From positions 62,001 through 126,000 of the forward strand of contig JACPVF010000005.1 of NCBI GenBank assembly GCA_016191845.1: a stretch of 64,000 bases of DNA, given 5' to 3'. Positions 19,749 through 34,274 of the stretch are shown here, one piece after another; position 1 is the first letter of the stretch; each line of letters starts with the position of its first letter. The notes beneath the pieces were generated by a model, which did not search any database, had not been told where the DNA came from, and saw only the letters and a list, made by a program, of their open reading frames with translations. Both the position numbers and the translations under genes were made by a program. The DNA comes from Chloroflexota bacterium (GTDB lineage Bacteria > Chloroflexota > Anaerolineae > Anaerolineales > Villigracilaceae).

Positions 19749-20510
19749 CTATCCCATCCTGCCCGTGATATAGGCCTCGGTCAGTTCCTGCTTCGGGCGG
19801 GTGAACATCTCAGTGGTGGGGGAGAACTCCACCAGTTCGCCCAGCCAGAACAGGCCCGTATAATCCGAGACGCGTGCAGCCTGTTGCATATTGTGGGTCA
19901 CGATGACGATGGTGTATTTTTCCTTCAGCTCCGCGATCAACTCCTCCACGCGCAGGGTGGCGATTGGGTCCAACGCCGAAGTGGACTCGTCCATCAGGAT
20001 CACCTCGGGTTGAATGGCCACCACGCGCGCGATGCACAATCTTTGCTGCTGGCCAAGTGAAAGGCCGAGAGCGTTCTCATGCAGAATGTCTTTTACATCG
20101 TCCCATAAAGCGGCCTGGACCAGACTGCGCTCGATGACCTCGTCCAGTTGCCGCTTGGTGAGGTCTGCTCCCATCACACGCGGACCGAAGGCCACGTTGT
20201 CATAAATGGACTGTGGGAACGGATTGGGCTTCTGGAAGACCATGCCCACGCGCTGACGCAGGGTCACTACGTCCAAGTCCGTGCCGTAGATGTCTGTGCC
20301 GTCGAGCAGAATCTTGCCTTCCACGCGTGTCCCCGCAATGGTGTCGTTCATGCGATTGAGGCAGCGTAGAAATGTGGACTTGCCGCAGCCCGAAGGTCCG
20401 ATCAACGCGGTCACCTTGCGCGGCTCGATCTCCAGACTGATGTTAGTGAGCGCGCGCGAGGGACCGTAGTAGAAGTTCAGGGTTTGGACGGAGAATGCGG
20501 AGGCAGTCAT
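19749..20510 (-). CDS. pstB: phosphate ABC transporter ATP-binding protein PstB, first copy, with altered signature motif
   Basis: This 253-residue protein aligns over its whole length with PstB: Walker [29 protein letters not shown], switch histidine in [13 protein letters not shown], and the usual end EAYITGRMG. Two positions are unusual. The ABC signature reads LSLGQQQR instead of LSGGQQQR, and the Walker B segment reads [10 protein letters not shown] instead of DEPTSALDP; the catalytic glutamate is kept. It is transcribed away from pstS, pstC, pstA and a second pstB, with only 38 bp between the divergent starts. A -10 box (TAGAAT on the minus strand) lies 7 nt before the ATG, so the message may be leaderless. 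It may form a mixed dimer with the other PstB. Confidence 0.9.
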
Positions 20511-20517
20511 GCAGTGG

Positions 20518-20541
20518 ATTCTATCATCATTGCGATATAAT
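20518..20541. promoter_or_regulatory. compact divergent promoters pstB1 / pstS1
   Basis: On the minus strand TAGAAT (20518-20523) precedes the pstB start by 7 nt. On the plus strand TATAAT (20536-20541) precedes the pstS start at 20549 by 7 nt. Both place transcription start at the start codon. No TTAAC-type Pho repeats are found here. Confidence 0.55.
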
Positions 20542-20548
20542 CGGCCTG

Positions 20549-21433
20549 ATGAAATCGCTGCCCCGCCTCATCGGACTTTCGATCGCCCTGGCCCTGTTTG
20601 GCGTTTCCTGTGCTTCGACCGGTTCCTCCCTTTCCTCCCCTCAAACTTCAACTGCATACATTGAGAACAAAGGCTCTGACACCATCGTCAACCTGGCGCT
20701 GGCCTGGGCCGAGCAGTATCAAGCCGACCACGCGGATGTGCGTATTTCGGTGACGGGTGGCGGTTCGGGCACCGGCATTGCGGCCCTTGTCAACGGCACC
20801 GTGGATATCGCCAACGCGTCCCGTCAGATCAAGCCTGAAGAGGTGACCGAGGCGGAGGCCAAGGGCATCCAGCCTGTTGAGTTCGTCATTGCACGCGACG
20901 CCATCGCGGTCATTGTCAACCCCGAGAATCCTGTCTCCGAATTGACCCTCCAACAGCTCTCCGACATCTACAGTGGCAAGATCAATAACTGGAAGGAGGT
21001 CGGAGGCGAAGACCGACCCATCGTGCGGCTGTCGCGTGAGACCAATTCCGGCACGCATGTCTACTTCCTCGAGACCGTCCTTCGCCTGGGCCAGAAGGAA
21101 AACAAGACCCTCTTCTCGATGGATACGTTGCTCCTGCCTTCTTCAGAGGGCATCATCTACGAAGTGCGTCAGAATCCAAATGCGATCGGCTACGATGGCC
21201 TGGGCTACGTGCCGCATGACCTGAAGATGATCGCCATTGCGAAGGAGCAAGGCGGTGCATACGTCCTGCCTTCGGCGGACACGGTCAATAATGGGACCTA
21301 TCCTATTGCGCGTGACCTGTACATGTACACGGCAGGTCAGCCCACTGGCGCGGTCAAAGCCTATCTCGATTGGATCCTTTCGCCTGCCGCGCAGACCATC
21401 GTGACCAAACTCGGTTTCGTGCCGATTCAATAA
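20549..21433 (+). CDS. pstS: phosphate-binding lipoprotein PstS, first copy
   Basis: I use the ATG at 20549, which opens a lipoprotein signal ([18 protein letters not shown], then VSC as an imperfect lipobox) and lies 7 nt after TATAAT; an upstream in-frame ATG at 20495 would run into the divergent pstB. The 294-residue product has the PstS-like phosphate-binding motifs [32 protein letters not shown], and a central [11 protein letters not shown]. It captures phosphate outside the membrane and delivers it to PstC/PstA encoded next. A GC-rich hairpin separates it from pstC. The sequence is clearly different from the second pstS at 27996. Confidence 0.9.
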
Positions 21434-21442
21434 TTTCCACTT

Positions 21443-21476
21443 GCGCCGCCAGGAAAGGCGGCGCGATGTTGTTTTG
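21443..21476 (+). terminator. intergenic hairpin between pstS1 and pstC1 (attenuator-like)
   Basis: GCGCCGCC and GGCGGCGC pair around AGGAAA, followed by a weak T-rich stretch (TTGTTTTG). Such hairpins after a binding-protein gene usually lower expression of the downstream permease or protect the upstream message. Confidence 0.6.
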
Positions 21477-21487
21477 ATAAGAGGATT

Positions 21488-22384
21488 ATGGAAAAGACCC
21501 TTAACTGGCGAGAATATGTCGTCACCCGCCTGGTGCGAGCTTCAGGCTATTCGGCCATTGTCTTCGTTGCCCTCATCTTCTTCTTCCTTCTACGCGAAGG
21601 CCTGCCCACTCTTGGCGAGGTCCCATTCTCCACGCTGTTCAGCCTGCGCTGGTACCCGATCGAGAATTACTTTGGCATCCTGCCGCTTATCACGGGTTCG
21701 ATCATCGTCACGCTCGGCGCGACGTTGGTGGCTGTCCCATTCGGTATCGGCACGGCGGTCTACATCTCCGAGATCGCTCCGCGCTGGATGCGCGAGATTC
21801 TCAAGCCAATGGTGGAACTGCTTGGTGGACTGCCCTCCGTGGTGTTGGGATTTCTTGGCATTCTGATCGTTTCCCCCTTCTTGCGCACCTTCCTGGACCT
21901 GCCGACGGGTCTGACTGCCTTCACCGGTTCCCTGCTCCTGGGCGGGATCGCCGTCCCGACGGTGGTCTCCATTGCCGAAGATGCACTCGACTCGGTCCCG
22001 CGCTCGTATCGGGAGGGGGCCTGGGCGCTGGGCGCCACCCGCTGGCAGACCATCTGGCGCGTGACGCTGCCCGCCGCCAAATCGGGTGTGCTGACAGCGG
22101 TCATGCTGGGCGTCGGTCGCGCCATCGGTGAAACGATGACCGTCATGATGGTGACGGGTAACGCGCCCGTGCTGGCCATCACACCTGCCAGCATGTTCTC
22201 GCCTGTCCGCACAATGACCGCCACCATCGCTGCGGAAATGGGAGAGGTGGCGAACGGCAGTGTCCACTATCACACCTTGTTCTTCATCGGCATGGTATTG
22301 TTCATCATCTCGCTGGTCGTGAACGTGGCTGCCTCGTCGGTCGTGTTCCGTTCCAAGCAGCGTGCGGAGCGGGTGCTCTCATGA
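21488..22384 (+). CDS. pstC: phosphate ABC transporter permease PstC, first copy
   Basis: This 298-residue integral membrane protein has about six helices. It carries the coupling-helix motif EDALDSVPRSYREGAWALGA followed by TRWQTIW, and GRAIGETMTVMMVTGN, both typical of PstC. AAGAGG lies upstream of the ATG. The gene overlaps pstA by 4 nt (ATGA), so the two permease halves are translated together. With PstA it forms the membrane channel of the high-affinity phosphate importer. Confidence 0.93.
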   Translation: MEKTLNWREYVVTRLVRASGYSAIVFVALIFFFLLREGLPTLGEVPFSTLFSLRWYPIENYFGILPLITGSIIVTLGATLVAVPFGIGTAVYISEIAPRWMREILKPMVELLGGLPSVVLGFLGILIVSPFLRTFLDLPTGLTAFTGSLLLGGIAVPTVVSIAEDALDSVPRSYREGAWALGATRWQTIWRVTLPAAKSGVLTAVMLGVGRAIGETMTVMMVTGNAPVLAITPASMFSPVRTMTATIAAEMGEVANGSVHYHTLFFIGMVLFIISLVVNVAASSVVFRSKQRAERVLS

Positions 22385-23244
22385 TGCGACGTCTGCGCCT
22401 TAATCGTCACGTAACGGAACGGCTTGGTTTCAGCTTCCTGACCCTGATGGCCGTGGTTACCGTGGTGCCCATCGTAGCCGTGGTGATCTACATCCTCGTC
22501 CAGGGTATGCCCGCCATCTCATGGGAATTCCTCTCGGGCTTCCCACGCGACGGGATGCGTGCGGGTGGCATCCTGCCTGCCATCGTTGGTACATTCTATC
22601 TGACGATTGGCACGGCGGTCTTCTCGGTCCCGCTGGGCATTGCTGCCGCGATCTACCTTTCCGAGTATGCGGCGGACAACGCGCTCACGCGCCTGATCCG
22701 CATTGCCATCATCAACCTGGCGGGTATTCCTTCGGTGGTGTATGGACTGTTCGGCCTGGGTCTGTTTGTGCTGTTCCTAAAATTTGGTACCAGCATCCTG
22801 GCTGCTTCGTTGACGCTCTCGATCATGACCCTGCCCGTCATCATCAGCACTGCCGAAGAAGCATTGCGCGCCGTGCCACAGCCTTTCCGCACGGTCAGCG
22901 TCTCGCTGGGCGGGACACGCTGGCAGGGGATTCAGCGCATCGTCCTGCCGCAGGCTTTGCCTGGCATCTTGACGGGTGTCATCCTCGGTCTGGAGCGCGC
23001 CGCAGGCGAGACTGCACCGATCCTCTTCACAGGAGCGGCTTTCTTTCTGCCGCGCCTGCCCAACTCGCCTTTCGACGCGACCATGGCCCTGCCATATCAC
23101 CTGTTCGTCATCTCAACACAGGTGCCTGAAATGCCGCCCCAGGTCCAATACGGGACGGCGCTGGTGCTGTTGGTCTTCGTGTTGGGCATGAACTTGATCG
23201 CTACCACCATCCGTTCACGCGCTCGTGCGCGCCGTCAGTGGTAA
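22381..23244 (+). CDS. pstA: phosphate ABC transporter permease PstA, first copy
   Basis: This is a 287-residue permease with about six membrane helices and a PstA-type coupling loop (EEALRAVPQPFRTVSVSLGG, then TRWQGIQRIVLP). The motif [19 protein letters not shown] is diagnostic for PstA. It begins inside the pstC stop and is followed after 5 nt by a second, plus-strand pstB. The order pstS-pstC-pstA-pstB is standard. What is unusual is the additional divergent pstB on the other side. Confidence 0.93.
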   Translation: MMRRLRLNRHVTERLGFSFLTLMAVVTVVPIVAVVIYILVQGMPAISWEFLSGFPRDGMRAGGILPAIVGTFYLTIGTAVFSVPLGIAAAIYLSEYAADNALTRLIRIAIINLAGIPSVVYGLFGLGLFVLFLKFGTSILAASLTLSIMTLPVIISTAEEALRAVPQPFRTVSVSLGGTRWQGIQRIVLPQALPGILTGVILGLERAAGETAPILFTGAAFFLPRLPNSPFDATMALPYHLFVISTQVPEMPPQVQYGTALVLLVFVLGMNLIATTIRSRARARRQW

Positions 23245-23249
23245 ACCTT

Positions 23250-24008
23250 ATGACCGATAAGATCGTTATTGAAAATCTTTCCTTGACTTACTCCGACGGC
23301 GTGGAGTCGCTGCGTAATATCAGCATGGGAGTTCGCGAGAATGCGGTGACCGTGTTGTTCGGCCCCGCGGGTGGAGGCAAGTCCACGTTGCTGCGCTGCC
23401 TCAATCGCCTCAACGACCTGACCGAGGTCCGTACCAGTGCGGGCCGCATCCTGATTGACGGCGAGAACATCCTCGACCCGAAGACGGACGTCATCGCCCT
23501 GCGCCGCAAGGTGGGCATGGTCTTTGCCCGCCCCGTGGTGCTTCCGATGAGCATTCGCCAGAACCTGACCTATGGACTGGAACTGGCAGGCGAGAAGCGC
23601 AAGTCCCGCCTTGACGAAGCCGTCGAGCGCAGCCTCAAGCTGGCTGCCATCTGGGATGAAATCAAGGACCGCCTCGACGATCCCGCCATCGCCCTCTCGG
23701 GCGGACAGCAGCAGCGCGTCTGTCTGGCGCGCGTGCTGGCGCTCCAGCCCGAGATTATCCTGCTCGACGAACCCACCAGCGGCCTGGATCCGATCTCGAC
23801 GGGCAAGGTGGAGTCCGCGTTGCAGGAATTGAAGAAGGAATACACGGTCATCCTCGTACCACATTCGGTGCAACAGGCTGCTCGTACCGCTGATTACGCT
23901 GCCTTCTTCCTGCAAGGGGAGCTGGTCGAATACGACGAAGGCAAGTCCATTTTCACCACTCCGCGGGAAAAGCGCACAGAAGATTACGTGACGGGACGTT
24001 TTGGGTAA
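23250..24008 (+). CDS. pstB: phosphate ABC transporter ATP-binding protein PstB, second copy of the first operon
   Basis: I place the start at the ATG 23250; an in-frame GTG at 23238 lies inside pstA. The 252-residue protein has a normal signature ([14 protein letters not shown]) and Walker B (ILLDEPTSGLDP). Its Walker A is GPAGGGKSTLL rather than GPSGCGKST. The FQRPNPFP element typical of PstB is changed to FARPVVLPMS, and the switch-histidine segment reads VPHSVQQAA rather than VTHNMQQAA. The end EDYVTGRFG is normal. These changes are roughly complementary to those in the divergent copy at 19749, which has a normal Walker A but an altered signature. A strong hairpin after the stop ends the operon. 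Confidence 0.88.
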   Translation: MTDKIVIENLSLTYSDGVESLRNISMGVRENAVTVLFGPAGGGKSTLLRCLNRLNDLTEVRTSAGRILIDGENILDPKTDVIALRRKVGMVFARPVVLPMSIRQNLTYGLELAGEKRKSRLDEAVERSLKLAAIWDEIKDRLDDPAIALSGGQQQRVCLARVLALQPEIILLDEPTSGLDPISTGKVESALQELKKEYTVILVPHSVQQAARTADYAAFFLQGELVEYDEGKSIFTTPREKRTEDYVTGRFG

Positions 24009-24011
24009 AGG

Positions 24012-24040
24012 ACAGCCACCCAATGGTGGCTGTTTGTTTT
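24012..24040 (+). terminator. Rho-independent terminator of the first pst operon
   Basis: ACAGCCACC and GGTGGCTGT form a 9-bp stem with loop CAAT, followed by TTGTTTT. It ends where the Pho box of the regulator gene begins. Confidence 0.88.
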
Positions 24041-24082
24041 AACTGACTCTTAACAGAGCCAAAAAATCCTTTATGGTATAGT
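24039..24082 (+). promoter_or_regulatory. Pho box and promoter of the PhoB-like regulator gene
   Basis: TTAACT (24039-24044) and TTAACA (24050-24055) are direct repeats 11 bp apart. A -10 box TATAGT lies at 24077-24082, 21 bp after the second repeat and 8 nt before the ATG. The layout matches PhoP/PhoB-type activation sites and implies autoregulation. Confidence 0.7.
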
Positions 24083-24090
24083 GTTAACAA

Positions 24091-24801
24091 ATGGCAGAAA
24101 CTGTTCTTGTAGTCGAAGATGAAACCGCCCTGCGTGAAACGCTGGCCTATAACTTGAAAAAAGAGGGGTACGAGGTGGAGGCTGTCGGCGATGGACGCCT
24201 GGCCTTGGAGTCCGCCCGCCGCGTGAAGCCCGACCTGATCGTGCTCGACCTGATGCTGCCCGAGCTGGACGGATTCGAGGTCACGCGCATTCTGCGCAGG
24301 GAGATGAGCACACCCATCCTCATGCTCACCGCCCGCGACGACGAGATCGACCGCGTGGTCGGCCTGGAGGTTGGCGCGGACGATTATCTCACCAAGCCTT
24401 TCTCGATGCGTGAGTTGATGGCGCGTGTCAAGGCGCAGTTGCGCCGTGCCCGCCTGATCGAGGACGAGTTGCAAAAGCGTGCGCCTGAATCCTCCACGCA
24501 GGATGTGTTGACCTTCGGAAACCTGTCGGTTAACCGCACCCGCCGCGAGGTGACCCTCAACGGCACACCGTTGCAACTCAAACCGCAGGAGTACCAACTG
24601 TTACTGTTCTTCGCGGAACACCGCGGACAGATGCTTTCACGTGAGTTCATTCTCGAACGCGTCTGGGGTTGGGATTTCATCGGCGACAGCCGGACCGTGG
24701 ATGTCCATGTACGCTGGCTGCGCCAGAAGATCGAAGCCGACTCGGCCAACCCCACGCGTATCGTCACCGTGCGCGGCGGCGGCTACCGCTTCGAGGGGTG
24801 A
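24091..24801 (+). CDS. PhoB/PhoP-like phosphate response regulator (OmpR family)
   Basis: The protein has 236 residues. The receiver domain (1-120) has acidic pocket residues E9, D10 and E11, phosphoacceptor D53 in [10 protein letters not shown], and K102 in DDYLTKPFS. The C-terminal winged helix (about 135-236) ends with the usual [13 protein letters not shown] and [10 protein letters not shown]. It lies between two pst systems and is followed by a membrane protein and a PhoR-like kinase, which makes it the regulator of the phosphate response. A Pho box precedes it. No Shine-Dalgarno is seen and the -10 box is 8 nt from the ATG, so a leaderless message is likely. The OmpR family is certain; the phosphate role rests on context. 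Confidence 0.88.
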
Positions 24802-24852
24802 TTCGATAGGAATCGCAAGCCCTTGAGAGTTCCATACGTGCAAAATAAATGT

Positions 24853-25470
24853 ATGAAAACAAAACTGGAACGTTCCATCCTTGGCTTGATTCTAGCCCCG
24901 CTCATGCCACTGGCCTTCCTCCTGGGAGGTTGGTGGCTGGCCTACGTTTTCTTGCCCGAATCCTGGATTTTCCCGGGTGCGTTGTCCGGTCTGTTGCTCG
25001 GCTTGTTGTTGGACTTCCCACTCCTGAAAAAATGGCTGAATGATGCAGGTGCGCTCGCGATGCCATTTTGGGCAGTGGTGTTCGTTTTCTACTCGATCGG
25101 TCTTTTCGGATTTTTCATGGGGGTGCCTGTCTTTAACCTGGTATTAGCGTTGCCTGCGGGATTTATCTTGGGCAGCAGGCTGGCATCCCGACATGCAGAT
25201 GAAATGAAATTGCGTGTAGTCTCCAGGCGCGCGTCAGGATTTACTACCTTTGTTCTTGCGCTGATCTGCATGGCTTCTGCCATGATCGCATTGGCTGACC
25301 CCTTTACCGAGGCCAACTTGCAAGGGATGTTGGCTCTGCCCTTTGACGTGACACGCGGCATGGTCATTGGCCTGATCGCAGTGGGAGGCGCGGTGCTTTT
25401 GCTGCTCAACTGGCTCCTGACTTTTGTTTCTGTCCGTTTCACTTACCAATTCTTGAAATTCCAAGCATGA
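24853..25470 (+). CDS. polytopic membrane protein between the regulator and kinase genes, function unknown
   Basis: I use the ATG at 24853 (MKTKLERSILG); a TTG at 24823 would add ten residues without a better ribosome site. The 205-residue protein has about five or six membrane helices, for example LILAPLMPLAFLLGGWWLAY, ALSGLLLGLLLDF, and VIGLIAVGGAVLLLLNWLLT, with a basic loop RLASRHADEMKLRVVSRR in the middle. I do not recognise a family. Its last codon overlaps the start of the kinase gene (ATGA), so production of the two proteins is coupled. By position it could be a sensory or regulatory partner of the kinase, in the way PhoU and PstCAB couple to PhoR elsewhere; this is inference. Confidence 0.7.
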   Translation: MKTKLERSILGLILAPLMPLAFLLGGWWLAYVFLPESWIFPGALSGLLLGLLLDFPLLKKWLNDAGALAMPFWAVVFVFYSIGLFGFFMGVPVFNLVLALPAGFILGSRLASRHADEMKLRVVSRRASGFTTFVLALICMASAMIALADPFTEANLQGMLALPFDVTRGMVIGLIAVGGAVLLLLNWLLTFVSVRFTYQFLKFQA

Positions 25471-26684
25471 CCTGGTCATTATTTATCATCACGGCTCTGC
25501 TCATTGTGTGTGGCTTCCTGGCCTGGCGTTACCTTGCCCTGCGACGTGACATCCGTGCAATGGCCGAGCAGATCCGTCGTAAGGAAGACCCGACCGAGAC
25601 TGCCAGCGAACTCGGTGACCTGGCCAGCGCCCTTAGTGCGCGTCTGTCCGCCGTCCAACTTCAACTTTACTCCCTCAATATCGAACATTCCAAACTGTCC
25701 GCCATCCTCGATCAGTTGACCGATGGCGTGCTCATCGTCGATGCCGATGGCCGCATCCAGTTTGCCAATCCTGCTGCCGAGCGGCTCTTCGGTGAGAACC
25801 TGTTGGGCCGTTCGGTGACCGAGACCCTGCGCCATCATCAGCTCATCCAGACCTGGCAGCGTAGCCAGCAAAATGGCGAGTTGCAAAGCGACTCAGTGGA
25901 ACTCCCCGCCCGGAAACAATTCCTGCAACTCGTCGTCATCCCTGACCGCGATACTCACGGCGGCAGCCTGTTGCTTGTGCAGGACCTCACTCGTCTGCGC
26001 CGCCTCGAAACCGTGCGGCGCGATTTTATCAGCAACCTCTCGCATGAACTCCGTACACCGCTGGCTTCCCTGCGCGCGCTGACCGAGACCTTGCAGGATG
26101 GGGCGCTGGAAGACCCACCTGCCGCGCGCCGTTTCGTCGATCAGATCTCGGTGGAAACGGATGCGCTGACCCAGATGGTGGCCGAACTGCTCGAACTCTC
26201 GCGCATCGAGTCGGGGCAGGTGGCTCTGAACCTCAAGCCTGTTCCCGCCTACGACCTGCTGTCCTCCGCCGCCGAGCGGATGCGCCTGCAGGCCGAGCGT
26301 GCGAGCCTCTCCCTGCGCGTGGATGGTTCGCCCAACCTGCCGAAGGTCCGCGCGGACCAGGCGCGGCTGGAGCAGGTGCTGGTCAATCTGATCCACAATG
26401 CGGTCAAGTTCACGCGGCCTGGAGGAGAGGTGGCCCTTTTGGCGGAACCCGCCGAAGGGGCGGTCTGTTTCGTCGTGCGGGATACGGGCGTGGGCATCTC
26501 TGCCGATGACCTGTCGCGCATCTTCGAGCGCTTCTACAAATCCGACCGCTCGCGTTCGGGCGGCGGCACTGGTTTGGGATTGTCCATTGCGCGGCATATC
26601 GTCGAAGCGCACGGTGGAAAAATCTGGGTCGAAAGCCGCCAGGGCGAGGGTAGTTCGTTCTTTTTTACCATCCCGCTGGCCTGA
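25467..26684 (+). CDS. PhoR-like sensor histidine kinase
   Basis: The protein has 405 residues. One N-terminal membrane helix (about 3-22) is followed by a cytoplasmic coil and a PAS domain (about 75-175: LTDGVLIVDADGRIQFANPA). The HisKA domain has the phosphoacceptor H193 in FISNLSHELRTPLASL. The ATPase domain has the N box LVNLIHNAVKF, G1 box DTGVGI and G2 box GTGLGLSI. This one-helix, PAS-containing, extracellular-domain-free design is that of PhoR, which senses the state of the Pst transporter and PhoU rather than phosphate itself. It should phosphorylate the regulator encoded at 24091. The gene starts within the stop of the membrane-protein gene. Confidence 0.88.
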   Translation: MTWSLFIITALLIVCGFLAWRYLALRRDIRAMAEQIRRKEDPTETASELGDLASALSARLSAVQLQLYSLNIEHSKLSAILDQLTDGVLIVDADGRIQFANPAAERLFGENLLGRSVTETLRHHQLIQTWQRSQQNGELQSDSVELPARKQFLQLVVIPDRDTHGGSLLLVQDLTRLRRLETVRRDFISNLSHELRTPLASLRALTETLQDGALEDPPAARRFVDQISVETDALTQMVAELLELSRIESGQVALNLKPVPAYDLLSSAAERMRLQAERASLSLRVDGSPNLPKVRADQARLEQVLVNLIHNAVKFTRPGGEVALLAEPAEGAVCFVVRDTGVGISADDLSRIFERFYKSDRSRSGGGTGLGLSIARHIVEAHGGKIWVESRQGEGSSFFFTIPLA

Positions 26685-26692
26685 CAAAATTG

Positions 26693-26746
26693 TTTACTGT
26701 TTGATAACTGGTTCTTAAGTCCACTTTGGTCGTTGCGCGGTAAGAT
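26693..26746 (+). promoter_or_regulatory. triple Pho box and promoter of the 30-codon gene
   Basis: TTTACT (26693), ATAACT (26704) and TTAAGT (26715) are three hexamers at exact 11-bp steps. A -10 box TAAGAT lies at 26741-26746, 20 bp after the last repeat. The predicted start is near 26753, giving a short leader with an AAGGAGAG ribosome site. Confidence 0.65.
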
Positions 26747-26765
26747 GGGGGCAAGGAGAGATGCC

Positions 26766-26858
26766 ATGTTTCTAGCTGTTCTTTTTCTAGCCTGGGTGAT
26801 CGTAGTTGGTGTGGACGTCCGGCAGAAGCGGCGTGATTATCTGCGCACCCAGAAATGA
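26766..26858 (+). CDS. 30-residue single-helix membrane peptide, predicted phosphate-regulated
   Basis: This very short gene encodes 30 residues: a hydrophobic helix MFLAVLFLAWVIVVGVDV followed by a basic tail RQKRRDYLRTQK, so it should insert with the tail in the cytoplasm. It has every part of an independent gene: a triple 11-bp repeat of the local Pho type, a -10 box, an AAGGAGAG ribosome site 9-10 nt before the ATG, and a hairpin with seven T's 12 nt after the stop. It lies between the PhoR-like kinase and surE. I recognise no family. By analogy with other small membrane peptides it may modulate a transporter or the kinase, but there is no direct evidence for the partner. Confidence 0.7.
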   Translation: MFLAVLFLAWVIVVGVDVRQKRRDYLRTQK

Positions 26859-26869
26859 TGCCTCATAGC

Positions 26870-26896
26870 AGTCCCGGTCTCCGGGGCTTTTTTTAT
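26870..26896 (+). terminator. Rho-independent terminator of the 30-codon gene
   Basis: AGTCCCGG and CCGGGGCT pair (one G-T pair) around TCT, followed by TTTTTTT. Confidence 0.85.
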
Positions 26897-26904
26897 TGTC
26901 ACCC

Positions 26905-26958
26905 TTTACGAGTTGTTAACCCGTTCTTGCATTTCCATTAAACCTGCCCTGATATGAT
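26905..26958 (+). promoter_or_regulatory. Pho box and promoter of surE
   Basis: TTTACG (26905) and TTAACC (26916) are 11 bp apart, with a weaker third copy TTGCAT (26927). A -10 box TATGAT lies at 26953-26958, 20 bp after the third copy and 8 nt before the first possible ATG at 26967. Confidence 0.6.
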
Positions 26959-26966
26959 GAAACGGT

Positions 26967-27800
26967 ATGGAAAAGAAAATGAAACACATTCTGGTAACAA
27001 ATGACGATGGGGTATTGGCGCCCGGGCTGCTGGCTCTGGCGCAGGAAATGCGCAAGCTTGGTAAGGTAAGCATCCTGGCCCCTGACCGCAACTGGTCGGG
27101 CGGCGGACATGTCAAGACCCTGGATCGCGCGCTGCGCGTCCGTGAATTCCGTTTGGCTGACGGCACACAGGCCTTCGCCAGCGACGGTGCACCGTCTGAT
27201 TGCGTGGCGCTGGCTACGCTGGGCTACTTCAAGGAACCGATCGACCTGGTGGTCTCAGGTATCAACGTGGGGGCGAACCTCGGCCACGATGTGACTTACT
27301 CAGGCACGGTGACAGCCGCCATGGAGGCGGTCATCATGGGCGTGCCCGGGGTGGCGGTTTCGCTCGAAGCCATCGAAGGCCACATCGGCGAAGTGGATTA
27401 TTCTACGGCGGCGCAGGCTGCAGGTAAGGTGGTCCGCCAGGTGATCGAGAACGGCTTGCCGCAGGAGATCCTGCTAAACGTCAATGTGCCGTTCCTGCCC
27501 ACCGAAAAGATCCGTGGCATCATGCTCACCCGTCAGGGACTGCGCGTATATCACAGCCGTCTCGATGAGCGCGTGGACCCACGCAACCGTCCGTATTATT
27601 GGATCGGCGGCGATGCGCCGACTGGCGTCCCCGAACGCGGCACCGACGTGGGCGCGCTGGCTGAAGGTTTTGTCTCGGTCACGCCCATGCAACTGGACCT
27701 GACCGCCTTCCGCGCCCTGACCGATCTGAACACCTGGACCTGGGACAATCCCTCCTCTTTGGAATCCACGCTGCTGGAAGCCGTACAAGCAGAAAAGTAG
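26967..27800 (+). CDS. surE: SurE 5'/3'-nucleotidase (nucleoside monophosphate phosphatase)
   Basis: The protein has 277 residues (273 if the second ATG at 26979 is used). The metal-binding opening ILVTNDDGVLAPG and the family signature VSGINVGANLGHDVTYSGTV are both intact. SurE releases phosphate from nucleoside 5'- or 3'-monophosphates and short polyphosphates in the cytoplasm. A Pho-type repeat precedes the gene and it stands between phosphate-sensing genes and the second Pst operon, so here it probably recycles phosphate from nucleotides during starvation. SurE is more often found beside pcm or in stationary-phase contexts. No Shine-Dalgarno is evident at the first ATG. Confidence 0.92.
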   Translation: MEKKMKHILVTNDDGVLAPGLLALAQEMRKLGKVSILAPDRNWSGGGHVKTLDRALRVREFRLADGTQAFASDGAPSDCVALATLGYFKEPIDLVVSGINVGANLGHDVTYSGTVTAAMEAVIMGVPGVAVSLEAIEGHIGEVDYSTAAQAAGKVVRQVIENGLPQEILLNVNVPFLPTEKIRGIMLTRQGLRVYHSRLDERVDPRNRPYYWIGGDAPTGVPERGTDVGALAEGFVSVTPMQLDLTAFRALTDLNTWTWDNPSSLESTLLEAVQAEK

Positions 27801-27838
27801 CGACAGGTTTCTCCTCCTCTTCTTCTCCTGAAAAGGGG

Positions 27839-27869
27839 ACCTGCCCGCCACTGGGCCTGGCGGGCAGGT
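27839..27869 (+). terminator. hairpin downstream of surE
   Basis: ACCTGCCCGCCA and TGGCGGGCAGGT form a perfect 12-bp stem around a 7-nt loop. No T-run follows, so it may stabilise the 3' end or need Rho. It separates surE from the Pho-box promoter of the second pst operon. Confidence 0.55.
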
Positions 27870-27907
27870 GCATTTAACGGGGAATCTCAAAAAACGTCCG
27901 ACCGACT

Positions 27908-27961
27908 TTAACTGAACGTTAACCGCTCCTTCCCTTGCCCTTAAAAGCCGCTTGATAACAT
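27908..27961 (+). promoter_or_regulatory. Pho box and promoter of the second pst operon
   Basis: TTAACT (27908) and TTAACC (27919) are exact 11-bp repeats, with a weaker TTCCCT at 27930. TAACAT at 27956-27961 is a -10 candidate, 20 bp after the third position. An AAGGAG ribosome site follows before the ATG at 27996. Confidence 0.68.
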
Positions 27962-27995
27962 CAGCCACGTAGAAAAATCAAAGGAGAAAAAAGAA

Positions 27996-29183
27996 ATGAC
28001 CCGTGTTGTTCGTCCTGTATTCTTCGTCCTGGTCGCGTTGAGCTTCCTGCTTGCGGCCTGCGGTGGTACGCCTGCCACCCCCGTCACCGTCGTCGAGACC
28101 CAGGTGGTCGAAAAGGTCGTCACCGCCACCCCTGATGCTTCCATGCCCGAACTGCCCGCTGGCTCCGTTCAGATCAACGGCGCGGGCGCGACCTTCCCGC
28201 TTCCCGTCTATACCGAGTGGACCTATGCTTACTCGTATGTGGATCCCGCTGTGGTCATCAACTACCAGGGCATTGGCTCGGGTGGCGGCAAGAAGGCCAT
28301 CGTCGATGGCACCGTCGACTTCGCTGGTTCCGACTCCCTGCTTAAGGATGAGGAATACACTTCTGGCAAGGACCTGCAGATGTATCCGATGCTGGCTGGC
28401 GCCGTGGTCGTGATCTACAACTTCACGCCTGCCAAGGAATATCCTGCTGACTTCAAGGCCCCCAAACTGATTCTGGACCGCCAGACCCTGGTCGACATCT
28501 ACAACGCCAAGGTCACCAAGTGGAATGATCCCGCCATCGTGGCGCTCAACCCCGACCTGGCCGACTACCTGCCCGCCGAGACCATCACCGCTGTTCACCG
28601 CTCCGACGGCTCTGGCACGACCGAGATCTTCACCAAGGCCCTCACCGCCTTCAGCGCGGACTGGACCGCGGGTGGCGCCTCTTCCATCGAGTGGCCTGTC
28701 GATAAGGCTGGCAATGGCGTGGGCGGTAAGGGCAACGCGGGTGTGGCCGCCTCTGTCATCAACACCCCCAATTCCCTCGGCTACGTGGAACTCTCCTACG
28801 CTGTCTCCAATAACCTGGCCTTCGCCGACCTGATCAACAAGGCGGGCCAGAAGGTGACCGCCAACGCCGATAGTGTAGCCTCTGCCATGAATGACTTCTC
28901 GGGTGCCTTCAGCGACAAGCTCACCGCCACCATCGTGGACGGCGAAGGTGCTGGCTCCTACCCGATCGTGGGCTACACCTACATCATCCTGCACACCACC
29001 AGCATGACCGACTGTGTCAAGGCTGAGAAACTCCTGCAGTTCCTGCAGTGGGCCCTGACCGATCCCTCCGCCACCTCCCGTGCTGGCGCCCTGGGCTACT
29101 CGGTTCTGCCCGACGCCGTCCGCGAGCAGGTGTTCGCCAAGTTCGGCGAAGTAACCTGCAACGGCGCGCCCGTGCTCAAATAA
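27996..29183 (+). CDS. pstS: phosphate-binding lipoprotein PstS, second copy
   Basis: This 395-residue lipoprotein precursor has lipobox LAAC (C25) after a hydrophobic signal. A Thr/Pro/Val-rich tether (TPATPVTVVETQVVEKVV) leads to the binding domain, with INGAGATFPLPVYTEW, IGSGGGKKAIVDG, and HRSDGSGTTEIFTKAL, the phosphate-contact motifs of PstS. Codon use is strongly biased toward C/G third positions (GCC, ACC, ATC), as expected for a highly expressed gene. AAGGAG precedes the ATG. A Pho box lies upstream and a UUCG-capped hairpin with T-run lies before pstC, so the binding protein should be made in excess over the permease. Confidence 0.95.
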   Translation: MTRVVRPVFFVLVALSFLLAACGGTPATPVTVVETQVVEKVVTATPDASMPELPAGSVQINGAGATFPLPVYTEWTYAYSYVDPAVVINYQGIGSGGGKKAIVDGTVDFAGSDSLLKDEEYTSGKDLQMYPMLAGAVVVIYNFTPAKEYPADFKAPKLILDRQTLVDIYNAKVTKWNDPAIVALNPDLADYLPAETITAVHRSDGSGTTEIFTKALTAFSADWTAGGASSIEWPVDKAGNGVGGKGNAGVAASVINTPNSLGYVELSYAVSNNLAFADLINKAGQKVTANADSVASAMNDFSGAFSDKLTATIVDGEGAGSYPIVGYTYIILHTTSMTDCVKAEKLLQFLQWALTDPSATSRAGALGYSVLPDAVREQVFAKFGEVTCNGAPVLK

Positions 29184-29206
29184 ATTAGCTATCTCCCCAA
29201 GTCCCA

Positions 29207-29248
29207 GGAGGGTCCTGCTTCGGTGGGACCCTCCACCCCCTGTTTTTT
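29207..29248 (+). terminator. UUCG-tetraloop terminator/attenuator between pstS2 and pstC2
   Basis: The 12-bp stem GGAGGGTCCTGC / GTGGGACCCTCC (two G-T pairs) is closed by a TTCG tetraloop and followed by TTTTTT (29243-29248). It should terminate most transcripts after pstS, with partial read-through into pstCAB and phoU. Confidence 0.85.
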
Positions 29249-29304
29249 GCCACCAGCGCATATCCCTTTCCTCAGACTGTCGGGACTACATTCTGAGCAG
29301 AGGG

Positions 29305-30339
29305 ATGTGGGTTGTGGAAAACGGAATTGAGATGACGAAACAAATTTCCATTCCCCCTGAACGACATTGGTTCAGTCGCCTCCAGCGGATCACCCGTCAC
29401 GGCGATTCTCCCTGGCAGGCTATCATCATCGTTATGGCTGTGCTGGTCATGGTGTTGATGCTTGCCATCGGCTGGATGCTCTGGCGCGAATCCGCTGACG
29501 CCCGTGCCGCCTTCGGCTGGGGCTTTCTGACCCCCTCGCTCGATACCAGCTGGGACCCGGTCAACGACAAGTTCGAGGCCTGGCCTTTTATCTATGGCAC
29601 GCTGCTCACCGCCCTGACGGCCATTGTGCTGGCCATCCCGATCAGCCTCGGCGTCGCCATCTTCATGTCCGAGTTGTGCCCCGACTGGCTCCGCATGCCC
29701 CTCAACTGGCTGGTGGAATTGTTAGCCGCCATCCCCAGCGTGGTCTACGGCCTGTGGGGCATCTTCGTCTTTTTGCCCCTGGTGGTGACACCTGTGGGCG
29801 GGGCCCTGTTCGAGACCTTGGGAAAGGTTCCCATGTTGAACGTCCTGTTCACGGGCCCCATCCCTCCGAGCGGTGCTTCGCGTCTGGGGGCAGCCTTCAT
29901 CCTGACCATCATGATCATCCCCACCATTACGGCCGTCACTCGCGATGTGCTGCTTTCCATTCCGAGCAGTCAGCGGGAGGCGGCCCTGGCGCTGGGGGCC
30001 ACGCAATGGGAGACCATCTGGCAGGTATTGCTGCCCTACGGCCTTTCGGGCATCCTGGGCGCGGTGATCCTGGGCCTGGGGCGCGCCCTGGGCGAGACGA
30101 TGGCCGTCACCATGGTGATTGGCAATAGTATTGAGGGCTCGCCCTCGCTGCTACGGCCTGGCTATACCATGGCCAGTGTCATCGCCAATGAGTTTGCCGA
30201 AGCGGTGACCAAACTCCACACCCAGGCGTTGATCGAGATCGGTCTGGTGTTGTTCTTCATGACCCTGCTGCTGAACATGGTCGCCCGCCTGCTGGTCTGG
30301 CGAGTGGCGCGGCGGACTCCGCAGGAGGCGCGCGCATGA
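29305..30339 (+). CDS. pstC: phosphate ABC transporter permease PstC, second copy
   Basis: This is a 344-residue permease with about six helices and the PstC motifs AAIPSVVYGLWGIFVFLPL, IPSSQREAALALGATQWETI, and GRALGETMAVTMVIGN. It is longer than the first copy mainly because of an extended N-terminus and a loop around residues 165-190. An alternative ATG at 29332 would remove nine residues; neither has a strong ribosome site. The gene overlaps pstA by 4 nt. Confidence 0.93.
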   Translation: MWVVENGIEMTKQISIPPERHWFSRLQRITRHGDSPWQAIIIVMAVLVMVLMLAIGWMLWRESADARAAFGWGFLTPSLDTSWDPVNDKFEAWPFIYGTLLTALTAIVLAIPISLGVAIFMSELCPDWLRMPLNWLVELLAAIPSVVYGLWGIFVFLPLVVTPVGGALFETLGKVPMLNVLFTGPIPPSGASRLGAAFILTIMIIPTITAVTRDVLLSIPSSQREAALALGATQWETIWQVLLPYGLSGILGAVILGLGRALGETMAVTMVIGNSIEGSPSLLRPGYTMASVIANEFAEAVTKLHTQALIEIGLVLFFMTLLLNMVARLLVWRVARRTPQEARA

Positions 30340-31301
30340 CCGCCACCACCGCAACCAGCACGCGCTTTCAGCAATTGATCGCCGAACAGCAGGCATCCCT
30401 CACCCCGCGCCGGAAGATCGTCAACGCAGTGATGCTGTCGCTGACGGGTTTGATGACCCTGCTGGCGCTGATTCCCCTCTTCTGGATCGTCGGTTATGTG
30501 ATCTACAAGGGCGGCCAGCAACTCAACCTCGATTTCTTCACCCAACTCCCGCGTCCGCTGGGCATGGATGGGGGAGGGGTGCTGCATGCCATTCAAGGGA
30601 CGGTGGTCATCACGCTCCTGGCCGCCGTGTTTGCCACCCCGCCCGGAGTGTTGGCGGCCTTCTATGCGGCGCGTTTCCCGAATACGCCCTTGGGCGTTGC
30701 TCTGCGCTTCAGCACGGATGTGCTCTCAGGCGTGCCGTCCATCGTCATCGGCTTATTTGCCTACGCCCTGATCGTCAAGCCGATGGGGCATTACTCGGGC
30801 CTGGCAGGCGGAATCGCCATGGCGATTCTCATGCTGCCGACCATCATCCGCACCACCGAGGAAATGCTCAAGCTGGTGCCACATGCCCTGCGTGAAGGCT
30901 CGTTGGCTCTCGGCGCCCCCGAGTGGAAAACTTCAATCATTGTGCTGTTTCCTGCCGCCCTGAATGGGGTCATCACCGGCTTTTTGTTGGCGATTGCTCG
31001 CGCAGCAGGTGAGACAGCGCCGTTGCTCTTCACCGCTCTGGGAAACGAGCGTTACGACATCGGCACCATTGTTCGCAACGGGGTCGCACAAAACCAGTCC
31101 TTCCTCCAGATCCTTGAACGCATCGTTGACCAGCCCGTGGACTCACTTCCGCTCACGCTGTGGAAATATGCCCAGCAGCCCTATCCCGAGCGCGTCGAGC
31201 AATCCTGGGCGGTGGCGCTCGTGCTGATGATCTTCGTCCTCCTGATCAATGTTCTGGCCCGTCTGTGGGTGGAAGCCCGCAAACGCCGCCTGCAAGGTTA
31301 A
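30336..31301 (+). CDS. pstA: phosphate ABC transporter permease PstA, second copy
   Basis: The protein has 321 residues, with a soluble N-terminal segment of about 40 residues before the first membrane helix. The coupling loop [20 protein letters not shown] and the motif [18 protein letters not shown] identify PstA. It starts within the pstC stop (ATGA) and is followed 4 nt later by pstB. Together the four genes make one complete importer. Confidence 0.93.
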
Positions 31302-31305
31302 TCCC

Positions 31306-32139
31306 ATGACCATTCAAACCCTCGAAATTGAATCTCAAACCCATTCCGCCGGCTCGGACGCCAAGCCGCTGGGAGCCAAGATGGAAGTACAAAATATGTC
31401 GGTCTTCTACGGGAAGTTCCGCGCCCTGACCGACATCAACATGAACATCTACGCCAACAAGATTACGGCCATCATCGGACCGTCGGGCTGCGGAAAATCC
31501 ACCCTGCTGCGCTCCTTCAATCGCATGAACGACCTGACCCCCAGCGCTCGCGTGGAGGGGAGCATCCTCCTGGATGGGCGTGACATCACCGCCAATCGTG
31601 AAGACGTGGTCGATGTTCGCCGCCGAATCGGCATGGTCTTCCAGCGCCCGAATCCGTTTCCGAAGAACATCTATGAGAATGTAGCTTATGGTCCGCGCCT
31701 CTATGGGATCCGCCGTAAGAACGACCTCGATCTGATCGTGGAGAAATCCCTCAAGCAGGCCGCCCTGTGGGAGGAGGTCAAGGACAAACTCCACCAGAGC
31801 GGACTCTCACTCTCGGGCGGGCAGCAGCAGCGTCTATGTATCGCGCGCGCGTTGGCGGTCGAGCCTGAGGTGATTCTGATGGATGAACCCGCCTCGGCGC
31901 TGGACCCCATCTCCACCCTGCGCATCGAAGAGTTGATGCACGACATCGTCAAGGAATATACCATCCTCATCGTGACCCACAACATGCAGCAGGCGGCACG
32001 CGTTTCCGATTTTACTGCCATGATGATGATCGACGAGCATCGCTCAGGGCGCATGATCGAATTCGGGGAGACCAAGTCGATCTTTACCAATCCAAAGGAC
32101 AAACGCACCGAAGATTACGTGACTGGAAGATTTGGATAG
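31306..32139 (+). CDS. pstB: phosphate ABC transporter ATP-binding protein PstB, canonical copy
   Basis: The ATG at 31306 follows AAGG and is preferred over an earlier in-frame ATG at 31249 inside pstA. The 277-residue product keeps every PstB motif: Walker [29 protein letters not shown], signature [14 protein letters not shown], Walker [13 protein letters not shown], switch histidine [13 protein letters not shown], and the end EDYVTGRFG. About 25 residues precede the ABC domain. It serves as the reference for judging the two altered PstB copies of the first operon. Confidence 0.95.
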
Positions 32140-32142
32140 CGT

Positions 32143-32148
32143 TATAAT
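32143..32148 (+). promoter_or_regulatory. promoter of phoU
   Basis: A perfect -10 box TATAAT lies just after the pstB stop. The predicted start is near 32155, and AAAGAGG precedes the phoU ATG at 32178. No Pho repeats are seen at the expected place, so phoU can be made independently of starvation. Confidence 0.6.
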
Positions 32149-32177
32149 ACGACATCGAACCACAAAAAGAGGTATGT

Positions 32178-32864
32178 ATGCTTCGGAAAACGTTTGAGAC
32201 CGAGTTACAGCAATTGAAGGATGAGGTGCTTGTGTTAGGCAGCATGGCCGAGCAGGCCATCCTGAATTCTGTGGAAGCGCTCAAGAAGCGTGATCTCAAG
32301 GCTTCGGAAAAGATCCTCGAAGATGACCGTGCCATCAATAAGAAGCGCTTCGATATCGAGAACCAGTTGATGATCCTGATCGCCACCCAGCAGCCCATGG
32401 CCCACGACCTGCGCCTGCTGGCCTCCACCATGGAGATCATCTCTGAACTGGAGCGCATGGGCGATTACGCCAAGGGCATCGCCAACATCAATATCCGCAT
32501 GGGCGACCAGCCCTTGCTCAAGCCGTTGATCGACATCCCCCGCATGGCTCAGAAGGACGTGGATATGCTCCACCGCGCTCTGACCGCCTTCGTCAACGAG
32601 GATGTGGAGGCCGCCCGCGTCATCCCCGCCGAGGACGATGAGGTGGACGCGCTCTACAATCAGGTCTATCGTGAGTTGATGATGTTCGTCATCCAGGATC
32701 CCAAGTCCATCGAGCGCGCCAACTGGCTCCTGTGGGTGGCGCACAATCTCGAGCGTGTGGCCGACCGCGTCACCAACATCTGTGAACGCACCATCTTCAT
32801 CGCCACAGGCGAAATGGCGGAGATCAAGTCCACGGATGATGATTTTTGGAAGAACCAGTCATAA
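32178..32864 (+). CDS. phoU: phosphate signalling accessory protein PhoU
   Basis: This is a 228-residue all-helical protein with the two PhoU repeats: the first around residues 15-110 (LGSMAEQAILNSVEALKKRD, then ISELERMGDYAKGIANI) and the second around 120-215 (LWVAHNLERVADRVTNICER). The E-x-x-R-x-x-D-x-x-x-N-I metal-cluster motif is present in each. PhoU links the Pst transporter to PhoR and keeps the regulon off when phosphate is plentiful. It has its own -10 box but is also reachable from the pst operon. A strong bidirectional terminator follows. Confidence 0.94.
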   Translation: MLRKTFETELQQLKDEVLVLGSMAEQAILNSVEALKKRDLKASEKILEDDRAINKKRFDIENQLMILIATQQPMAHDLRLLASTMEIISELERMGDYAKGIANINIRMGDQPLLKPLIDIPRMAQKDVDMLHRALTAFVNEDVEAARVIPAEDDEVDALYNQVYRELMMFVIQDPKSIERANWLLWVAHNLERVADRVTNICERTIFIATGEMAEIKSTDDDFWKNQS

Positions 32865-32892
32865 CTTGCATTGTGCTCTACTCTCAAACCAT

Positions 32893-32929
32893 AAAAAAGA
32901 GGCGGACCATACGGTCCGCCTCTTTTTTG
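32893..32929. terminator. bidirectional Rho-independent terminator
   Basis: AAAAAAGAGGCGGACC and GGTCCGCCTCTTTTTT form a perfect 16-bp stem with a 4-nt loop, between phoU and the convergent NAD-salvage operon. Confidence 0.94.
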
Positions 32930-32930
32930 T

Positions 32931-34274
32931 TTACCACACCCGTTCCAGGTTGGGATTTTCACGCGGTCTGCGGCCTACCTTGGCCATATCCACCCATTCA
33001 CCGCGGAGCTTCACCCGCACCACGTCGGCGGTGAAGTCGGTGACCGTGGCGCCGTTATTGTTGAACAGGTACGAGCCCACCGCATAGATGTCGACGGGAA
33101 CGCCCAGCTTCTCGAACTTGCGGATCTTCTCGGGCTGGAATCCGCCTGAGACGACGATCTTCACGTTGCGGCAATATTCCTTCGCCGCCTCCTGCCAGGA
33201 CTTTGGCAGGCTCCAGCGCTCCCAGGCGGAATCCAACGCCTGACGGACGTTGAAGACCAGGCGCGGGGTCACGCCCAGGTCCAGGCTGGGCTCGCCCAGA
33301 GGCGGAACCGAAACGTCGCGCAGGCTTCCGCTCGTGTCGAGACGCACGCCGTACAGTTTGTACTTCTCAGCCTCTTCCTTTTGGCCTGCATCCATCAACT
33401 TGCGATATTCGGTGAACATGGCATCCAGCGTGCGCAGCGAATCGCGGACGCTGTCGTTGTTGAAATCCACCAGCGCAATGCGCGGCACGTTGACGGGCAG
33501 GACGCGCGCAAAGGCCATCATGGCCTCGGCAGTGTCACCCAGGAAGGAGGCGATGGCCGCATGGGCGATGGTCCCGCCGCCTGCGCCGCCCCACCAGTCG
33601 CCCTGGGCATCGGTCGAGATGAACGGGCCGATATCCTGGAAATGATCCTGATTAAAGCGCTGGACGGCAATGCTGTAGGCGTAGCCGTCGGCGGCCTGGG
33701 CCTCGTGCAGGTCGAAGCGGGCGGGGAAGAACAGCACGGGCTTGCCGCGCGCCGCCACCAGCGTCTCGTACACGTTGGTCGCCACGCGGCTGGAGCGGGT
33801 GAAGATGCCCAGGGTGGGCGTCTCCAACAGCGCAAAGTCGCGATAGCGTCCGCGCACCTTGAGCACGGGCTGGATGTAGAGCGGATTGCCATCCGACTCG
33901 ACTACGCAGCCGTCATGCACCGCCCAAACTTCGAGCCTGTCAGAGGTGTCGACGAAGCGTTCGCCCTCGAAGTAGCCCGTGCAATGCTTGAGCATGGCTA
34001 GGGCCTTGTCCACGCCCACGATGACGGTCTGGCCGACGCGGCGGGTGAACCATTGCATCTCCACTTCGATGTCGCCCACTGCGATCTCTTCCGGGGAGAT
34101 GCCTTCGGGCAGGTTGGGGTATCCACCGCGATAGATGTAACCCTCGGCGGCCAGCACGGTCAACATGCGGTTGATGTTTTCGAAATACTTGTCGGAATAC
34201 CAGCCCTTGCGCATCCGTTCGATGTCGAGTTTGAAAGTTTCGTTGGTAAGACGTTTTCCGTCGAAGATGGACAT
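32931..34274 (-). CDS. nicotinate phosphoribosyltransferase-family protein
   Basis: This 447-residue protein has the NAPRTase layout: an N-terminal domain with WYSDKYFENINRML, a barrel with RVATNVYETLVAARGKPVLF, and the C-terminal phosphate-site segment VSGGFQPEKIRKF ... VDIYAVGSYLFNNN ... TDFTADVVRVKL. The family joins nicotinic acid to phosphoribosyl pyrophosphate, the committed step of the Preiss-Handler NAD salvage route. It ends two bases after the phoU terminator on the opposite strand and follows a nicotinamidase-like gene by 3 nt, so the pair can convert nicotinamide to nicotinate mononucleotide. The family is certain; a different base specificity cannot be excluded. Confidence 0.87.
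   Translation of the reverse strand: MSIFDGKRLTNETFKLDIERMRKGWYSDKYFENINRMLTVLAAEGYIYRGGYPNLPEGISPEEIAVGDIEVEMQWFTRRVGQTVIVGVDKALAMLKHCTGYFEGERFVDTSDRLEVWAVHDGCVVESDGNPLYIQPVLKVRGRYRDFALLETPTLGIFTRSSRVATNVYETLVAARGKPVLFFPARFDLHEAQAADGYAYSIAVQRFNQDHFQDIGPFISTDAQGDWWGGAGGGTIAHAAIASFLGDTAEAMMAFARVLPVNVPRIALVDFNNDSVRDSLRTLDAMFTEYRKLMDAGQKEEAEKYKLYGVRLDTSGSLRDVSVPPLGEPSLDLGVTPRLVFNVRQALDSAWERWSLPKSWQEAAKEYCRNVKIVVSGGFQPEKIRKFEKLGVPVDIYAVGSYLFNNNGATVTDFTADVVRVKLRGEWVDMAKVGRRPRENPNLERVW

Follow-up and report, generated by a model that had tools for sequence, protein, structure and literature searches.

The locus between a phoR-type kinase gene and surE raises the question of whether a 30-codon ORF found there encodes a genuine protein, whether this protein belongs to the phosphate (Pho) response and, if so, on which component of that response it could act. 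The window, i.e. the complete stretch of 64,000 nt analysed here, carries two pst sets, phoB, phoR, the microprotein ORF, surE and phoU on one strand between positions 20495 and 32864 (Table 1); in relatives, phosphate clusters also hold ppk, ppx, CHAD and PHP genes. As 179 ORFs with a length of 25 aa or more overlap positions 20000–34000, short ORFs are common in the window, so that an ORF means nothing in itself and conservation is what exceeds chance. Ordinary gene calling can miss a microprotein of 30 aa.

A preliminary description of this DNA had assigned the ORF a complete transcription unit. All of its elements were found in place or within 1–2 nt: the three Pho-type repeats (TTTAC, ATAAC and TTAAG) are spaced by exactly 11 bp, and the −10 element, the ribosome-binding site and the T-tailed hairpin were each recovered by rereading the sequence. 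A genome of the same genus has a hairpin with a T run at the equivalent place, with diverged sequence. The next gene, surE, lies 109 bp downstream of the ORF and has a Pho-type promoter of its own.

Table 1. Features of the phosphate gene region in the window (R1, model built from the microprotein promoters of relatives)
Feature	Position	Strand	Basis or remark
First pstSCAB set	20495..24008	+	Read from translations; TIGR00974 (PstA/PstC type) matches there
Partial Pho-type box before phoB (TTAACTGACTCTTAA)	24039..24053	+	R1 7.2 bits, E 0.48, rank 4 in window
PhoB-type response regulator	24091..24801	+	PF00072 and PF00486
Membrane protein (by eye) between phoB and phoR	24853..25467		No Pfam match
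PhoR-type histidine kinase (PAS, HisKA, HATPase)	25467..26684	+	One N-terminal hydrophobic segment (by eye)
Three 11-bp Pho-type repeats, TTTAC-N6-ATAAC-N6-TTAAG	26693..26719	+	R1 28.1 bits; conserved 5′ of homologues
Pentamers of the repeats	TTTAC 26693..26697, ATAAC 26704..26708, TTAAG 26715..26719	+	
Position of fourth 11-bp unit, degenerate (TTGGT; wTAAA in relatives)	26726..26730	+	Column frequencies
−10 element TAAGAT	26741..26746	+	21 nt 3′ of third repeat
Shine–Dalgarno AAGGAGA	26753..26759	+	
30-residue membrane microprotein MFLAVLFLAWVIVVGVDVRQKRRDYLRTQK	26766..26858	+	ATG at 26766, TGA ends 26858
Intrinsic terminator	26870..26894	+	Hairpin 26870..26888, then six T
Second Pho-type promoter, before surE	26905..26958	+	R1 17.2 bits, E 0.028 in whole genome
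surE (nucleotidase family)	26967..27800	+	PF01975, E 3.8e-58
Partial Pho-type box before second pstS	27908..27931	+	R1 7.3 bits, E 0.47, rank 3 in window
Second PstS-type phosphate-binding protein	27996..29183	+	PF12849, E 3.1e-37
phoU	32178..32864	+	PF01895, two domains

Conservation of the frame in relatives had been set beforehand as one test of the claim, and the claim withstood it. In the same-genus genome, where the DNA of the unit matches at 69%, the frame, length and tail of the ORF are all kept; differences fall on the three codon positions as 8/6/18, and 12 of the changed codons are synonymous and 10 are not. An alternative is that the ORF arose by chance and that only the DNA or RNA is functional, for example as a promoter, an attenuator or a small RNA, in line with the abundance of short ORFs and the conservation of the upstream DNA itself. 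Against this stands the pattern across the family: differences between the 63 nearest pairs are distributed over the codon positions as 395/180/635, and, of the 609 codons that differ at one position, 402 changed synonymously where 180 were expected (the pairs are non-independent and the p-value of this excess is nominal). Moreover, the protein motif is kept while the DNA diverges, and the 15-residue hydropathy peak is high in all members (at least 2.23 in 98/98 distinct sequences), a value to be compared with a peak of at least 2.0 in 3 of the 199 ATG-initiated ORFs of 25–45 aa that the window holds, counting this ORF among them. We consequently rejected the chance ORF on the codon evidence and regard it as highly improbable. 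As judged from the sequence comparisons, the 30-codon ORF at 26766–26858 is a real gene.

A direct DNA search of 61 genomes, including the window's own, recovered the whole unit in that genome and the same-genus one only; another 37 genomes gave nothing beyond short matches (E ≤ 1) that we took as noise. ORFs of the microprotein type were also present 5′ of surE in other genera, and a profile (A2, E ≤ 0.01) identified relatives in 96 of the 152 genomes of the window's family. Candidatus Villigracilaceae AMX68 (L187) is the title of one locus with a member. Absence from the other 56 means no match at this threshold, and at least two of them (G033 and G104) do carry a diverged copy. Beyond the family, a second profile (A3, E ≤ 0.001) matched 48 of 301 genomes of the order, of which 47 belong to the window's family, and 12 of 298 genomes of the class, every one in that family. 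The sole match outside it (G042, family f7) is located 35 nt before surE. Some genomes have several copies; at L101:4061-4834, three consecutive copies, each differing in sequence, lie between phoR and PHP/surE.

The earlier statement that no described family accounts for this peptide also held. When 46 members were compared with Pfam-A (E ≤ 0.1), the eight families listed were all weak and unrelated: the best match, to a plectrovirus TM protein (E = 0.0019), was taken as unrelated, and a weak family match for which a score was shown (E = 0.008) fell below its cut-off. Likewise, we found no account of the family among open-licence PubMed Central articles. The microprotein family is thus new, in that no Pfam or NCBIfam family fits it, and of a known general kind.

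Its members consist of a single hydrophobic helix followed by a basic tail with the signature V-D-x3-K-R-R-x-F/Y-L, which agrees with the membrane peptide originally described. By majority, the core in 79 members reads V-F-x-V-D-x-x-Q/R-K-R-R-x-F/Y-L, with near-invariant D (78 members), K (77) and first R (77). Net charge averages −0.7 in the part before the conserved D/E and +3.8 from this residue onward, which by the positive-inside rule suggests an N-out, C-in orientation. Single-sequence structure prediction gave one helix only, spanning residues 2–29 (mean pLDDT 87). An ATG occupies the chosen start in 93 of 98 members. Of the other five, L082 and L099 have GTG, L087 has GTG and L279 ATG slightly upstream, and L090 has no usual start codon within the 12 preceding codons except for a GTG nine codons up; the L090 copy may be defective or may begin at another site.

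We next consider regulation. Membership of the Pho regulon was judged by PhoB-type 11-bp direct repeats at a fixed distance from a −10 element, and this arrangement recurs across the family: a strict TTTAC-N6-TTAAC-N6-TTAAG-like pattern precedes 33 of 79 members (33 of 81 profile matches), and the best −10 element, sought 8–25 nt downstream, was at 21 nt in all 33 boxes. The family consensus comprises four 11-bp units, of which the fourth (wTAAA), at +11, is degenerate in the window. With this fourth unit there could be room for two PhoB dimers, the last of them stopping ∼10 nt short of the −10 element, which is the arrangement of E. coli pho promoters. A second form (TTTTG-N6-CAAAC-N6-TAAAG, 21 nt, TATCCT), with the same 54-nt geometry, precedes 7 of the 79 members, all from one group of copies (L086:4946, L110, L111, L119 and others), with 6 nt to the ATG in four of the seven; its TTTGC/GCAAA part is palindromic, so that a different regulator is possible. 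Neither form was found for the remaining 39, some of which sit in operons or have near-matches.

A model of the strict form (R1) was built from 30 promoters, excluding the window, the same-genus genome and the near-duplicate L176. Searched against the whole 4.63-Mb genome, with 150 of 291 first-look candidates scored, it gave just two matches at E ≤ 10, the microprotein promoter (28.1 bits, E = 1.1e-5) and the one before surE; the partial boxes before phoB and the second pstS are both below significance. Over 41 stretches (E ≤ 1), 16 of the 34 matches lay before a microprotein gene (7 within the training set and 9 outside it), 11 before a pstS-type gene, two before phoU, one before surE (that of the window) and one before a PHP gene, and three had no named gene within reach. 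The pstS, phoU, surE and PHP matches are all outside the training set, and several are weak (E up to 0.11). The phosphate regulation claimed in the preliminary description is therefore supported at the level of sequence: the promoter is of the Pho type, and the same model marks pstS, phoU and PHP genes in relatives, from which we predict expression in low phosphate. Taken as a whole, the family almost certainly represents real Pho-controlled membrane proteins.

The strict promoters differ in what follows them. For 17 of the 33, including that of the window, 19–30 nt separate the −10 element from the ATG, with a Shine–Dalgarno-like motif in all 17. For another 15 the distance is 6–7 nt and such a motif is present in just three, which implies a leaderless mRNA; these 15 copies (L191, L118, L115, L182, L190 and others) are thus apparently transcribed without a leader. 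The remaining one, at L168, has 86 nt between the promoter (4786–4846) and the start at 4930, a leader that contains an inverted repeat (CCCGAAGG...CCTTCGGG). Terminator-like hairpins were found within ∼100 nt of 28 of 79 members.

At least one of the phosphate genes sought lies within 5 kb of 93 of 98 distinct members, or of 68 of 73 when the count is limited to loci picked through the microprotein. The nearest downstream one (within 1.5 kb, n = 98) encodes a PHP protein in 43 cases, SurE in 25, a pstS-type protein in 11 and PhoU in 8, one of the eight PhoU genes being a C-terminal fragment. In this last kind of setting, L270:3237-3547 of G073 has the microprotein followed only by the last 33 residues of phoU, a phoU remnant, and on a different contig of this genome a microprotein gene precedes a complete phoU. 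Upstream, the nearest phosphate gene on the same strand (within 1.5 kb) is phoR in 35 of 98. Polyphosphate genes (ppk, ppx, CHAD and sixA-like, named by eye) are frequent neighbours. Because the downstream gene varies, the neighbourhood singles out no partner.

Which protein could the microprotein act on? The adjacent membrane protein between phoB and phoR, put forward earlier as a candidate, is a poor one: it has no Pfam match and a narrow occurrence, as tblastn over 41 stretches, several of which do not reach that position, found it in the window and its sister genome only. A feedback inhibitor acting on PhoR alone, in the manner of MgrB and through helix–helix contact with the single TM helix of the kinase, would fit the one short N-terminal hydrophobic segment of PhoR and the place of the microprotein gene, which immediately follows phoR in the window and in many relatives (within 2 kb in 39 of 96 positive genomes). 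Its presence also correlates with that of PhoR (85 with and 11 without a PhoR match at E ≤ 1e-80 among positive genomes vs 32 and 24 among the 56 negative ones; p = 1.7e-5, a value that ignores completeness and kinship; this table and the one for surE below were compiled by hand). The 11 positive genomes without a PhoR match point the other way, above all G083 and G084, which have no phoB match either (E ≤ 1e-60) and nevertheless keep Pst, PhoU and an intact microprotein ORF. In these two (L092 and L093), the gene lies away from phosphate genes and its Pho repeats have decayed while the −10 element is kept. Their retention of the microprotein disfavours PhoR as the sole partner, which we consider unlikely. 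PhoR N-termini from genomes with and without the microprotein showed no obvious difference by eye, and the 32 genomes with PhoR and no microprotein match indicate that the phosphate pathway works without it.

The downstream genes suggest another role, that of a membrane tether for the cytosolic SurE or a PHP-domain phosphoesterase, which would salvage phosphate in starvation. One of the two is the nearest downstream phosphate gene in 68 of 98 members (25 of the 98 coming from SurE-chosen loci), and many copies overlap or adjoin the surE start (−19 to +16 nt), as in translational coupling. Again there is a correlation, with the microprotein present in 58 and absent from four genomes with a pho-locus surE vs 38 and 52 without one (Fisher 1.5e-11, ignoring completeness and kinship). 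However, those 38 positive genomes lack the pho-locus surE, some members neighbour neither gene (phoR-pst or phoU contexts), and the microprotein of the window is set apart from surE by a terminator and by the promoter that surE has of its own; we judge the tether to be an unlikely function, too. Still less probable is a stress-induced membrane-active peptide, resembling type I toxins or YohP, that damps energy metabolism and has no single partner. Short length, hydrophobicity, basic charge, a starvation-type promoter and several copies in some genomes would suit such a peptide, as would the metabolic silencing that a 2025 paper reportedly ascribes to YohP, but the near-invariant polar D-x3-K-R-R and the strong purifying selection fit a specific partner better. 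Pst and PhoU, by comparison, are the most constant candidates, and a Pst–PhoU mechanism is preferred on this basis: across 15 hand-picked genomes, the window's own included, Pst was found in all and PhoU in 14. Eight of the 11 PhoR-negative genomes (G083, G084, G066, G010, G072, G073, G126 and G139) were checked, with Pst in 8/8 and PhoU in seven, the exception being G126 (78% complete). Five genomes without a PhoR match (G006, G010, G066, G072 and G073) have the microprotein at most 300 nt upstream of a phoU that is 81–85% identical.

Small membrane proteins with roles like those considered here are known. MgrB and SafA regulate PhoQ, and the analogy, one of action, would lie in a small inner-membrane protein induced by the very system that it may tune; MgrB has a cysteine-containing part that is periplasmic, whereas the conserved part of the microprotein is predicted on the cytoplasmic side, and the sequences do not match. 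AcrZ, CydX and MgtS-type proteins are single-helix accessory subunits of large membrane complexes; they belong to different families and contexts, and binding of the microprotein to Pst is putative. Pfam holds models for KdpF, DUF1127 and MgrB, none of which was among the eight families listed for the 46 members (E ≤ 0.1). KdpF is a 30-aa peptide of the KdpABC potassium transporter for which a two-hybrid assay showed interaction with the sensor KdpD, and which reportedly plays no critical part in kdp regulation (PMC3618439). It resembles the microprotein in size class, in its single membrane helix, in the position of its gene beside a nutrient transporter and a two-component system, and, as predicted for the microprotein, in being regulated by that system; KdpF is co-transcribed with kdpABC, whereas the microprotein of the window has its own promoter and terminator and those of relatives have varied phosphate neighbours (PMC3618439). 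Small DUF1127 proteins, as described in an excerpted article, bind PhoR and tune Pi uptake, and DUF1127/YjiS is proposed to help PhoU engage PhoR (PMC12501420). Like the microprotein, they are often <50 aa, positively charged and tied to phosphate sensing by PhoR/PhoU; they differ in that there is no sequence match and that the excerpt mentions no transmembrane segment (PMC12501420).

We therefore return to the preferred reading, in which the microprotein would be a PhoB-induced regulator or adaptor of the Pst–PhoU(–PhoR) complex, a proposal that we consider quite possible, if somewhat short of probable. Under phosphate starvation, PhoB~P would bind the 11-bp repeats and the microprotein would be made. 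It would span the inner membrane once through ∼16–17 hydrophobic residues, with the N-terminus outside, the near-invariant Asp at the cytoplasmic edge and the basic tail (D-x3-K-R-R-x-F/Y-L) inside. Inserted beside Pst/PhoR, it could dock its juxtamembrane tail on PhoU or on the Pst permease/ATPase and so tune uptake or signalling; the most plausible modes of action would be negative feedback or the anchoring of PhoU to the membrane. A narrower version, in which the microprotein is a lineage-specific, dedicated adaptor with a tail that would hold PhoU (or PstB) at the membrane as a starvation-made addition to Pst–PhoU–PhoR, is more tentative and, as we see it, somewhat doubtful.

The way in which the phosphate signal passes between Pst, PhoU and PhoR is a matter of continuing debate, and little work on it has, to our knowledge, dealt with Chloroflexota. 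With matches in 96 of the 152 genomes of the window's family, the Pho-linked microprotein offers a concrete candidate for a missing part. Genomes such as G083 and G084, with no phoBR matches and a decayed box, amount to a natural loss experiment, R1 supplies a Pho-box model for the group, and one and the same small gene can be compared in leaderless and leadered form. If the adaptor reading is true, the canonical Pst–PhoU–PhoR chain would gain a starvation-made component, one apparently produced from leaderless mRNA at 15 of the 33 strict promoters.
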